Positions 57,077 through 60,766 of a stretch of 64,000 bases of DNA are shown piece by piece (position 1 is the first letter of the stretch; the number at the start of each line of letters is the position of its first letter). Source of the DNA: an uncultured Sphingomonadaceae bacterium (GTDB lineage Bacteria; Pseudomonadota; Alphaproteobacteria; Sphingomonadales; Sphingomonadaceae); the NCBI GenBank assembly GCA_947489315.1, contig CANLCX010000004.1:62001-126000 (forward strand), given 5' to 3'. Under the pieces are notes generated by a model that was not told where the DNA came from, made no database searches, and was given only the letters and a program-made list of their open reading frames with translations. The position numbers and the translations under genes are program-made.

Positions 57077-58408
57077 ATGGCAAAAATACAAACGCCGCAG
57101 GCTGTTCGCGGCACGCAGGATATATTTGGTGAAGATCAGGAGCGTTTCCAGCATGTTGTGGAAACCTTTGAGCGCGTGCGTCGGCTTTACGGGTTTAAGG
57201 GCGTGCAGATGCCTGTGTTTGAGCCAACCGCTGTTTTTGCGCGGTCATTGGGTGAAACCACCGATGTCGTGTCCAAGGAAATGTATAGTTTTGAGGATCG
57301 CGGCGGCGACAGCCTGACCCTGCGGCCCGAATTTACAGCCGGTATCTCGCGCGCTTACTTGACCAATGGCTGGCAGCAACATGTGCCGTTGAAGCTTTCA
57401 ACCCATGGGCCTTTATTCCGCTATGAACGCCCGCAAAAAGGCCGCTATCGCCAATTTCATCAGCTCGATGCCGAGATTATCGGAGTGAGCGAAGCTGCCG
57501 CGGATGTGGAATTGCTCTGTTTTGCCGATCAGTTGTTGAAAGAATTGGGCATATCGGATGGCGTTACTTTGCAGCTCAATACGCTGGGCGATGCCGAAAG
57601 CCGCGATGCATGGCGCGATGCGCTGGTCGAGCATTTTCAGGCACACAAGGCGGATCTGTCCAAAGATAGCCAGGACCGGCTGGAGCGCAATCCGTTACGG
57701 ATATTGGATAGCAAAGAGCGGCAGGATCGCCCGATTGCCGATAGCGCGCCGGACATCGACGCCTATTTGTCAACCGAAGCGAAAGAGTTTTTCACGCAAG
57801 TGACAGAAGGCCTTGATGCCTGCGGTGTCAGTTGGACGCGCAATAGTCGTTTGGTGCGCGGGTTAGATTATTATCGTCATACCGCGTTTGAATTTGTGAC
57901 CGACCGGTTGGGTGCACAAGGCACCGTGCTGGCCGGCGGGCGTTATGATGGGTTGATCGAATCTCTGGGCGGACCAGTCACGCCGGCTGTCGGTTGGGCT
58001 GCAGGTATAGAGCGGTTGGGCATGTTGCTTGCCGATGTTCCCGCTAAGCCTATGGAACTAGCGATCTTGCCGATGGGCGAGACCGCTTCCGCTAAGGCGC
58101 TTGCCGTCGCAAGTGAACTGCGCGGATCGCAATTCTCGGCAGAAATTTTCGGCAGCGGTAAATTTAAAAAACGCATGGCCCGCGCCAATCAGGTCGGCGC
58201 GCTGGCCGCCATTATCATTGGCGAAGATGAAATGGCGTCTGGCAAAGTGCAGTTTAAAAATCTGGCCACAGGCGAGCAAACCGAATTGGATGTGGCCGCC
58301 GTAATAGAAAAAATGTGGGACCTCAGGTTTTCTGAAGACCTCGATAGTTTTGACGCAGACCTGACAGATTTGGAGCAAGAAGTTGCCCAATTGGGAGAGG
58401 CGGATTGA
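57077..58408 (+). CDS. hisS: histidyl-tRNA synthetase
   Basis: 443 residues. Motif 1 includes [15 protein letters not shown]; motif 2 is [33 protein letters not shown] and the [20 protein letters not shown] stretch are the histidine-binding and motif 3 regions. The anticodon-binding domain follows. Of the double ATG, 57077 has AGG at a better distance; 57074 is possible. The last bases overlap prfA (TTGA). Confidence 0.96.
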
Positions 58409-59481
58409 CCACCATATCCCCCCAGCGCATCGCACAAATCGAAGCGCGCTTTGCCGAGCTGCAGGCGATGATGGCCTCTGGCAATCTCGACGGCGATAAA
58501 TTTGTCGAGACGTCCAAGGAATATGCCGAGATCGAACCGGTGGCCAATGCCGCCGCCGAGGTAAAGCGTCTGCGCGACGAACAAGCTGGGCTCGATGAAA
58601 TGCTCGCCGGCGATGATGCCGAAATGAAGGCCATGGCGGCTGACGAAGTCGATGACGTCAAGAAAGCGTTGGAAAAGGCGCAACATGCGCTGGCGCTGCA
58701 ATTGCTGCCTAAGGATGCGGCGGATGAGCGTCCGGCCATGCTGGAAATTCGCGCGGGTACAGGTGGTGACGAAGCGGCGCTGTTCGCGGGTGACCTCTAC
58801 CGCATGTATAGCCGCTTTGCCGACGAACAGGGCTGGAAGATCGAACTGATCTCCGCCAACGCTTCGGAAGTCGGCGGGTTTAAGGAAGTGGTTGCCAATA
58901 TCAACGGCAAGGGGGTGTTCGCCAAATTGAAATTTGAGTCCGGTGTGCACCGGGTGCAGCGCGTGCCCGAGACAGAATCCGGAGGGCGTATTCATACCTC
59001 TGCGGCGACGGTCGCGGTTTTGCCGGAACCGGAAGAAGTCGATATCGATATCCGCACCGAAGACCTGCGCATCGATACCTATCGGGCAAGCGGCGCGGGT
59101 GGTCAGCATGTCAACAAGACCGACAGCGCGATTCGTATCACCCATTTGCCCACCGGGCTGGTCGTGCAATGTCAGGACGGCAAATCACAGCATAAGAACA
59201 AGGCGCAGGCGATGAAAGTTCTCGCCGCACGGTTATACGAACAAGAGCGCGCAGCGGTGGCGAGTGAAGAGGCCGATGCGCGCAAGGCGATGGTCGGCTC
59301 TGGTGATCGCTCCGAACGCATTCGCACCTATAATTATCCGCAAGGCCGGGTGACCGACCACCGGATCAACCTAACCCTGCACAAATTGCCCGAAATCGTC
59401 GAAGGCGGTGCGCTGGGTGAAATGGTCGATGCCCTGATCGCCGAAGATGAAGCCAGCCGCCTCGCCAATCTGGATGGGTGA
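58405..59481 (+). CDS. prfA: peptide chain release factor 1
   Basis: 358 residues. The GGQ catalytic motif is in [40 protein letters not shown] and the stop-recognition region follow the RF1 pattern. The start is TTG 58405 in a TTGA overlap with hisS, with GGGAGAGG five bases upstream. The glutamine of GGQ is methylated by PrmC, encoded next but now joined to a DUF559 frame. Confidence 0.96.
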
Positions 59482-60766
59482 TAAACCTAAACAAACCCCT
59501 CCCCTTCAGGGGAGGGGCAAGGGGTGGGGGCTATCAAAGGAGCGCCTAGCGATTCTTCAAGACCGTGCGAAAGAAATGCGTTCCAATCCCACCGAGCCTG
59601 AAAAGCGGCTGTGGCGAAAAATATCAAATTCGCAGTTGGACGGGTTCAAGTTCCGGAGACAAGCGGTTATCAGCCACTATATTGCCGATTTCTTATGCCC
59701 AAAAAAAGCGCTAATTTTGGAAATAGACGGTGATACGCATCAAGCTGATCAAGATGCGAAGCGAGACGCCGAATTGAAGCAACTTGGCTATCTGACACTC
59801 CGGTTCACCAACGAAGATGTGATGCATAATATCGAGGGTGTACTGCAGGCTGTTTTGGATCAATTATATGGATCCGATCCGCGCTGGCAGGATGCCCCCC
59901 ACCCCAACCCCTCCCCTGAAGGGGAGGGGCTTAATATGGTATTGCGAGAAGCCACCACTGCATTGCAATCCGTTAGTGAAACGCCGCGGCTGGATGCGGA
60001 ATTGCTGATGGCCCATGCTTTGGAGATCAGTCGTCAGGACTTGCTGTTGAATCTGCCGAAGCTCGATGTCCCGGAAGGGTTTGCGGCCTTTCTGGAGCGT
60101 CGAAAGGCCCATGAACCAGTCGCGTATATTATTGGTGAACGGGAATTTTGGAGTCTGCCGTTTCAGGTATCTGCCGATGTCCTCATTCCAAGGCCAGACA
60201 GTGAAATATTGATCGAAACTGCCGTGCAAATCGGTACCGCCTATGCTGCCGAAGCGATTCTCGACCTCGGTACCGGTAGCGGCGCGCTATTGCTCGCGGC
60301 GCTGTCCGAATTTCCCGAGGCCCGGGGCGTCGGGATGGATGCCAGTGCCTCTGCCCTTGCCATGGCCCATAATAATGCTGATCGGTTGGGGCTTAGTGAT
60401 CGTACAAGCTTCCTGTTGCAAGACTGGACGACGGCGGATTGGACGCAATCTTTGGGTGGTCCCTTTGACCTCATTCTCGCGAATCCGCCTTATGTGTCCA
60501 CCAAGGCCATATTATCCCGCGAAGTGGCCGATTATGAACCGCATCAAGCGCTGTTTGCCGGAACCGAGGGCATGGACGATTATCATATCATCATTCCGGC
60601 TCTGGATAGCCTGCTGTCCGCCAAGGGCACAGCACTACTCGAAATTGGCTTCGATCAGGCTGGACCGGTATCCAAACTGGCCGAAAAACATAGCTATGTG
60701 GCTCAATGCAAACAGGATTTGGGCGGCAATGACCGCCTTCTTATTCTGCGCCGGAAACAGGACTGA
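59474..60766 (+). CDS. prmC: in-frame DUF559 endonuclease-like / PrmC fusion frame
   Basis: A single open frame of 430 codons. Residues about 33-133 are a DUF559 (Vsr/PD-(D/E)xK-like) domain: [40 protein letters not shown] (Asp72) and [20 protein letters not shown] (Glu83, Asp85, His89). From Met155 (ATG 59936) comes a complete PrmC of 276 residues, N5-glutamine methyltransferase of RF1/RF2, with [20 protein letters not shown] (SAM loop) and [20 protein letters not shown] (NPPY). No stop separates the parts. The linkers are translated inverted repeats ([21 protein letters not shown]). Since 59936 has its own strong SD, native PrmC is probably made from there; whether the long form exists is open. 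Confidence 0.9.
59496..59929. mobile_element. DUF559 cassette bounded by inverted repeats
   Basis: The left repeat (59496-59531) starts with the palindrome CCCCTCCCCT-TC-AGGGGAGGGG and continues CAAGGGGTGGGGGC. The right repeat (59894-59929) is its near-exact reverse complement, with small differences (AA against TTG, one extra C). The 434-base unit holds only the DUF559 frame. It lies between the RF1 stop and the prmC start. No clear target duplication is seen. The form is that of a small nuclease gene carried between REP-like ends. Confidence 0.7.
59921..59938 (+). promoter_or_regulatory. prmC ribosome binding site supplied by the repeat
   Basis: GGGGAGGGG (59921-59929), the outer arm of the right palindrome, is six bases before ATG 59936, the start of a native-length PrmC. 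It is the only SD-like sequence near. The same arm can pair with CCCCTCCCC at 59908-59916 in RNA, which would hide it. Confidence 0.65.

Follow-up and report, generated by a model that had tools for sequence, protein, structure and literature searches.

The window analysed here, a stretch of 64,000 nucleotides from an uncultured Sphingomonadaceae bacterium (genome G000), carries the release factor gene prfA followed by prmC, which is interrupted in frame by a small cassette with a DUF559 gene. The features are the following, in coordinates of the window.

58405..59481, plus strand: prfA (release factor 1) with PCRF and RF-1 domains; its stop overlaps the native prmC start, an overlap read in 20 genus members
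59474..60766, plus strand: fused frame of 430 aa, consisting of prmC codons 1-3 (M-G-D), the cassette and the remaining PrmC
59493..59531, unstranded: left cassette end, an inverted arm with a palindrome (hairpin 59496-59517) and an inner G-rich tag
59558..59866, plus strand: DUF559 domain (Vsr-like nuclease; PF04480, 9.4e-34), with a structure model of pLDDT 85.6 and fold matches to 3hrl, 3r3p and Vsr
59894..59932, unstranded: right cassette end, an inverted arm with the inner tag and a palindrome (hairpin 59908-59929)
59920..59929, plus strand: AGGGGAGGGG, Shine-Dalgarno-like as read from the sequence, 6 nt 5' of ATG 59936
59936..60766, plus strand: prmC body of 276 aa by translation, with PrmC_N and methyltransferase domains and a possible internal start (Met155)

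The whole cassette with both hairpin ends spans 59493-59932, and DUF559 is the sole gene between these ends. A profile search placed the DUF559 domain (PF04480, 116 bits, above the curated cut-off of 20.6 bits), PrmC_N and the methyltransferase domain in one frame, which stays open from ATG 59474 for 430 aa through PrmC including its NPPY. The inverted arms at 59493-59531 and 59894-59932 are 39 nt long, 85% complementary and spaced by 362 nt, and each contains a perfect 22-bp palindrome, CCCCTCCCCT-NN-AGGGGAGGGG, at 59496-59517 and 59908-59929. This confirms the original prediction of a Vsr-like DUF559 frame that is bounded by inverted repeats and runs into prmC without a stop. The arm palindromes were found in 0 of 100 dinucleotide shuffles of the window, by which an origin by chance was ruled out. 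In the direction from outside, the two ends read AACAAACCCCTCC... and TATTAAGCCCCTCC..., and they carry the G-rich tag on their inner side. As a single strand the left-end hairpin reaches -11 kcal/mol with a z-score of only -1.4; for single ends the gain in folding over shuffles is only small (z -1.4, -1.7 and -2.2), and the full short element described below alone stands out (-7.1).

The cassette is located within prmC, after codon 3 (M-G-D), and not merely between prfA and prmC, because the native start ATG 59474 opens into PrmC in all 20 genus members read. PrmC was sought in 32 genomes including our own, and the junction was read in the 20 belonging to the genus; a start of the ATG 59474 type overlaps the prfA stop and leads in an open frame into PrmC in 20 of these 20, own genome included. 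The original description is right apart from the placement between the two genes, which has to be amended. The AGGGGAGGGG copy at 59920..59929 may permit an internal start of PrmC at ATG 59936. The assignment of Met155 as the PrmC start applies to G000, where this ATG exists and opens a body of 276 aa, and does not extend to the second filled genome, G006, which has no Met at the equivalent place; the fusion or a weaker start must therefore serve there.

Aligning the prfA-prmC junctions for empty sites, as had been proposed, revealed 17 genus members without the cassette, two filled in frame (G000 and G006) and one with a short in-frame stretch (G017). The gap between the aligned genes at the 17 cassette-free junctions is 11-17 bp in 15 cases and 38 and 47 bp in the two genomes in which the PrmC alignment starts late. 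The stretch in G017 contains half-palindromes (MGDNDNITPVYERQGLSHALRE) and is read as a cassette remnant. The fused frame of G006 has 430 aa as in G000, and the two cassettes have identical palindromes and a single one-codon indel inside. For this single genome pair dN/dS was 0.15 in the DUF559 part and 0.10 in PrmC, at a dS of about 1.2 that is near saturation. The earlier suggestion of a neutral insertion scar fits poorly with the kept frame and the low dN/dS of DUF559 in this pair. Trees of prfA and prmC disagree: the prfA tree does not place the filled genomes as sisters, and the prmC tree makes G000 the sister of the empty G011. As a separate observation, this conflict and the identities of G018 to the window (99.4% for RF1, about 81-83% for PrmC; window 58405-60766 compared with L101-L119) point to recombination at the junction. 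Loss, recombination and repeated insertion all fit the patchy pattern and cannot be told apart. At the closest empty site, in G011, a TA duplication is possible and not convincing, and no convincing target-site duplication was seen at the traced insertion sites (the G011 junction and the short-element site L022).

The motif E-x-D-G-x-x-H is invariant across 16 diverse DUF559 sequences. A profile sequence search matched 3hrl (6e-33) and weakly 3r3p (0.013), which bears the PDB name "mobile intron protein". With the structure model (pLDDT 85.6; window and related-locus sequences), Foldseek returned 3hrl (NGO0050; 3.9e-7), 3r3p (I-Bth0305I; 7.3e-5) and Vsr (1cw0 at 6.8e-3, and also 1vsr). On this model, the DUF559 fold is Vsr/I-Bth0305I-like and of the PD-(D/E)XK class, which makes the protein a putative EDxHD-type nuclease. 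The same fold search gave weak matches to several Toxoplasma mitochondrial ribosome proteins (E 0.009 and weaker), and PADLOC reported only one weak DpdF match (0.00023). The Caulobacter DUF559 protein VsrA causes an SOS response in cells without the cytosine methyltransferase ScmA and is proposed, in the sections of that paper available to us, as a Vsr-like, putative mismatch-repair enzyme (PMC12907096); the string "transpos" occurs 0 times in the paper's text as available. Among the open-licence papers surveyed, no title or abstract opening linked DUF559 with such palindromic repeats.

DUF559 was present in 42 of 60 genomes comprising our own and its relatives, and in 108 of 299 genomes across the phylum. 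Our sample of 121 loci comprised 72 of the own genome and its relatives and 49 hits of the phylum search; most were picked from the high-scoring end of the lists, and low-scoring and fragmentary matches are accordingly under-represented. With an end-score threshold of 12, the maximum of 200 random placements in the window, inverted repeats above threshold lay on both sides at 93 of 120 DUF559 loci (250-bp flanks; one further locus was short-flanked), compared with 3 of 237 control placements at other positions of these loci and 0 of 22 PrmC loci (350-bp flanks, best score 11). With longer flanks, matched ends were found at 62 of 70 loci from the own genome and relatives (2 of the 72 being short-flanked) and at 31 of 49 in the phylum set. 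The expectation that the repeats flank most DUF559 genes was thus borne out by the 93 matched pairs, and does not hold for the 27 of 120 loci, about a quarter, that have no matched ends. Neither of the outcomes named beforehand as contrary, an arrangement universal in relatives or DUF559 genes elsewhere without repeats, occurred, though the same quarter of loci lacks repeats. Five further loci from a genome collection scored 121 (L185), 50 (L184), 18 (L187), 18 (L188) and 11 (L186); L186, L187 and L188 belong to Bacteroidota by their record titles.

The usual DUF559 end consists of an outer hairpin and an inner G-rich tag. A motif of four G-tracts on the strand that reads inwards was present in at least one flank at 49 of the 93 loci with ends and in neither flank at 44, and none of 500 randomly drawn 350-bp segments of the window contained it. 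Concordance between DUF559 clade and end type was first scored with end types taken from crude typed patterns, and the tree required no fewer than 12 label changes. It became much weaker when each set of orthologous sites entered as a single site (38 sites, r 0.20, 88 of 9999 permutations); as much of the signal came from orthologous sites, its reading as co-evolution was abandoned. A search with one query at an E limit of 1e-5 matched 38 of 72,556 plasmid records and 3 of 50,697 phage records, which rules out frequent carriage on plasmids or phages. Such scarcity fits a RAYT-like vertical life, and movement between hosts was not seen. Three loci are mentioned for their own sake: similar direct stretches with CCTCTCCCTGTGGGA flank the DUF559 gene on both sides in Neisseria gonorrhoeae (L217), a Deinococcus sp. 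plasmid carries DUF559 with matched ends (score 20) in opposite orientation within an hpa gene cluster (L220), and a fourth, weak DUF559-like match in G000 (L004, C2:653536-653697; 24.6 bits) lies inside an open frame of 1997 aa.

The palindrome of the window cassette, designated type A, occurs with up to 3 mismatches at 25 places in the own genome, namely twice at the window cassette, twice at a cassette at C1:1245023 and 21 times in paired elements that lack the gene. There are eleven such gene-less elements of 90-117 bp each, one partner of which (C3:277.8 kb) has diverged beyond what the pattern detects and is visible on inspection. Some of the elements have spacer sequence in common and non-matching outer flanks (L021 and L022; L024, L027, L028 and L030). 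The ends of L022 score highest against those of the window cassette and of its ortholog in G006 (62 each, compared with 48 for the next and a median of 20). For a 162-bp type-B element in G014, clade-B cassettes are the best match (80; median 20). T-variants of the type-A palindrome account for 0 of 6 copies in G006, 8 of 21 in G000, 21 of 23 in G010 and 17 of 17 in G012. Judged from these sequences, the palindrome variant appears to differ among genomes in step with the cassette, and shared descent could contribute to this.

We traced the L022 and L027 sites in 13 relatives. At the L022 site, G022 has a type-A element and G020 one of a related type; eight genomes show a native sequence of 54 bp, and G027 and G031 have other repeats (G017 was left unread). 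The element takes the place of these native 54 bp rather than adding to them. At the L027 site, type A was found in two genomes, type B in four, a solo hairpin in five, a partial hairpin in G017 and another repeat in G022. In further genomes (L191, L193 and L215) these sites hold repeats of different families, GTCCTGAGCTTGTCGAAGG-like and CGTCATTCCAGCGGAAGCTGGAATC-like, and both sites look like hot spots for small palindromic elements.

A comparison of palindrome numbers between 13 genus genomes with a type-A DUF559 and 12 without gave p 0.010, or p 0.084 after subtraction of the two own copies. This test covered 25 of 32 genus genomes; the seven omitted ones, less than 90% complete, have 20 (G001), 8 (G002), 12 (G004), 3 (G008), 4 (G015), 0 (G021) and 5 (G029) copies, and G001 has a type-A DUF559. 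The genomes G016, G025 and G028 contain 13-19 type-A palindromes each, with no type-A DUF559 detected; the DUF559 remnants in G025 and G028 are of types other than A, which invalidates a comparison that omits these two genomes. With three exceptions and the weaker p value after own-copy subtraction, a clean tie between palindrome number and DUF559 presence was not retained. In G014, a type-B DUF559 gene is apparently split into two frames (L248, C1:869400-872700), and a type-B short element (L209) persists in this genome.

Cassettes have landed at other sites as well. A type-A cassette lies between sufB and sufC on a plasmid of Sphingomonas parapaucimobilis; among 24 sufB-sufC junctions of the family, 6 contain DUF559 and 18 do not, and type-A-like ends were recognised in the inspected parts of four of the six (L222-L225). 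At 14 of the 121 DUF559 loci the open frame reaches 230 codons or more. Two of these frames lie in prmC (L003 and L072). In others, DUF559 is in frame with an asparagine-synthetase-like protein (asnB-like, L150; 7ylz residues 1-90 and then 94 onwards flank the insert), with HsdM (L153; 3khk aligned to 496 and then from 505), with MurB as an N-terminal addition (L145) and with CbiG, likewise N-terminally (L136 and L137 by Pfam; L139 and L171 by similar sequence). In the frames of L146, L141, L177, L174 and L181 the domain search found DUF559-type domains only. The fusion joints read as Pro/Ser/Gly/Glu linkers, and the inverted-repeat scores of L145 and L137 (8 and 10) are under the threshold of 12. 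Because DUF559 is found in frame with such unrelated genes, the fusion to prmC seems to be just one of several landings.

Taken together, we regard the insert in the window as probably a palindrome-ended DUF559 cassette, i.e. a REPtron-like mobile unit in which a Vsr-like nuclease replaces the HUH transposase. As a pattern, the mobile unit is well supported by cassette-free sites in relatives, matched ends at 93 of 120 loci and gene-less paired elements, in line with the RAYT-like minimal unit originally envisaged. We infer that DUF559 itself moves the cassette and the short elements. The enzyme would recognise the hairpin or the G-rich tag of its own ends, perhaps when these are single-stranded or extruded, and cut there; host repair or some further DUF559 activity would then integrate the released unit, or its copy, at new sites, and short elements would be moved in trans. 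Since the ends translate into stop-free linkers rich in Pro, Ser, Gly and Glu, landing in frame would be tolerated, with the host protein surviving as a fusion. At prmC, a DUF559-PrmC protein would be expressed from the start codon of the host gene, and selection for PrmC would keep the frame. Counted against DUF559 as the mover are the three type-A-rich genomes without a type-A DUF559, the weak clade-type concordance, the 27 of 120 loci without ends, the absence of matched ends at ycjD, the lack of a convincing target duplication and the replacement of 54 bp at L022.

Some of these points would be accounted for if the ends and short elements were mobile by other means (host repair, replication slippage or another enzyme), with DUF559 as a passenger or as a palindrome-processing repair nuclease that gains from its position. 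We consider this unlikely, yet it deserves to be taken seriously: type-A palindromes persist in the three genomes mentioned, VsrA is proposed as a Vsr-like repair enzyme in the available part of its description (PMC12907096), and no strand-transfer activity of a Vsr-like fold was known in this analysis. However, a random passenger would be less constant than a gene that has a matched pair on both sides at 93 of 120 loci, and two types of short elements best match the cassettes of two DUF559 clades.

The second-best fold match, the catalytic domain of the homing endonuclease I-Bth0305I, suggests another route, in which DUF559 cuts the empty target and repair copies the cassette from a filled homolog, as for free-standing homing endonucleases; the patchy filled and empty states at one site and the conflicting prfA and prmC trees are consistent with it. 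Related type-A cassettes at different sites (prfA-prmC and sufB-sufC) and short elements scattered among unrelated flanks, which pure homing would not give, nevertheless rule out pure homing, and we rate this route as very improbable. Least credible of all, in our view, is a DUF559-PrmC fusion selected as a functional protein that couples nucleic-acid cleavage to translation termination, a role raised in the original prediction. The frame kept between G000 and G006 and the dN/dS of 0.15 for DUF559 speak in its favour, but purifying selection on DUF559 and on the frame is also expected if nuclease and PrmC each matter alone. The fusion is absent in 17 of 20 genus members, and DUF559 is likewise fused to unrelated genes elsewhere, which leaves the coupling to termination unsupported and rules out a functional PrmC fusion as the main explanation.

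A self-moving, palindrome-ended cassette, the reading preferred here, looks like an unreported kind of jumping DNA, and to our knowledge a Vsr-like nuclease is not among the mobilisers of such palindromic repeats. In a wider formulation, to which we give an even chance, DUF559 nucleases represent a widespread class of mobile palindromic elements that extends outside Pseudomonadota and has a Vsr-like nuclease as its sole protein. This nuclease would spread itself and gene-less elements by cutting hairpin or G-quadruplex-capable ends, the stop-free cassette would sit in frame in housekeeping genes, and some known small palindromic repeats, perhaps BoxC of E. coli, would belong to its elements. 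If true, this would provide a role for a large family of unknown function, identify a partner enzyme for a group of palindromic repeats in bacteria and extend their mobilisers by a further nuclease type. Odd linker-bearing fused proteins would simply be accounted for by palindromic ends that are read in frame.

Among known systems, I-Bth0305I, a Vsr-like EDxHD homing endonuclease, shares the catalytic fold with DUF559 (3r3p, Foldseek 7.3e-5). It is an intron-borne enzyme that homes to one site, whereas DUF559 cassettes have hairpin ends and occupy many sites; instead of one conserved target per element type, we found prfA-prmC, sufB-sufC and many short-element sites. The E. coli gene ycjD resembles the cassettes as a DUF559 gene with CCCCTCACCCTAACCCTCTCCCC...GGGG on its 3' side. 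In the fabI-ycjD-sapF region of E. coli K-12 (L130), two repeats of the CCCTCTCCC type lie 3' of ycjD at about 1700-1925, on one side only, and one of them presumably resembles BoxC. In contrast to the cassettes, no matched pair of ends surrounds the gene, and ycjD was therefore dropped as a lead to a BoxC-linked cassette. A match to the ycjD region (coverage of at least 80%) was present in 3362 of 5426 E. coli genomes; three strains without ycjD have a TetR gene beside fabI instead, and none of these three inspected strains has a simple empty site. The BoxC family itself comprises E. coli repeats of 50-56 bp, according to the portion of the source consulted (PMC2267715).

VsrA of Caulobacter shares the DUF559 domain and differs in being described, in the text at hand, as a putative mismatch-repair enzyme (PMC12907096). 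Rickettsia palindromic elements likewise sit in frame and without a stop in unrelated protein genes; they measure about 150 bp, and a nuclease gene is not described for them in the accessible part of the source (PMC10969869), whereas the DUF559 cassette carries one. The in-frame insertions in prmC, asnB-like, hsdM, murB and cbiG genes resemble them in behaviour.

The REPtron (REP/REPIN with RAYT, TnpA-REP) shares most with the cassette. Both have hairpin ends that bear a short tag, pairs in inverted orientation around a linker of variable length, a single gene next to its own repeats and non-autonomous short elements at other places, and both are rare on plasmids, as far as the consulted parts of PMC8266576 and PMC8049555 describe the RAYT side. 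Dispersed inverted pairs without the gene, a hallmark of REPtrons, are represented by eleven in our genome. RAYTs are single-copy, vertically inherited and not seen on plasmids, and REPINs are commoner in RAYT-bearing genomes, in the passages available from PMC8049555. The differences concern the enzyme, which is a PD-(D/E)XK Vsr-like nuclease and not an HUH (Y1) tyrosine transposase, with no HUH gene between the ends; the tag, which is G-rich and on the inner side, while the GTAG-type tag of REPs is absent at the window ends; and the in-frame gene landings, which are common enough for several among 121 loci. The DUF559 cassette, having neither an HUH transposase nor a GTAG tag, is not a REPtron, and the REPtron is its closest behavioural parallel.
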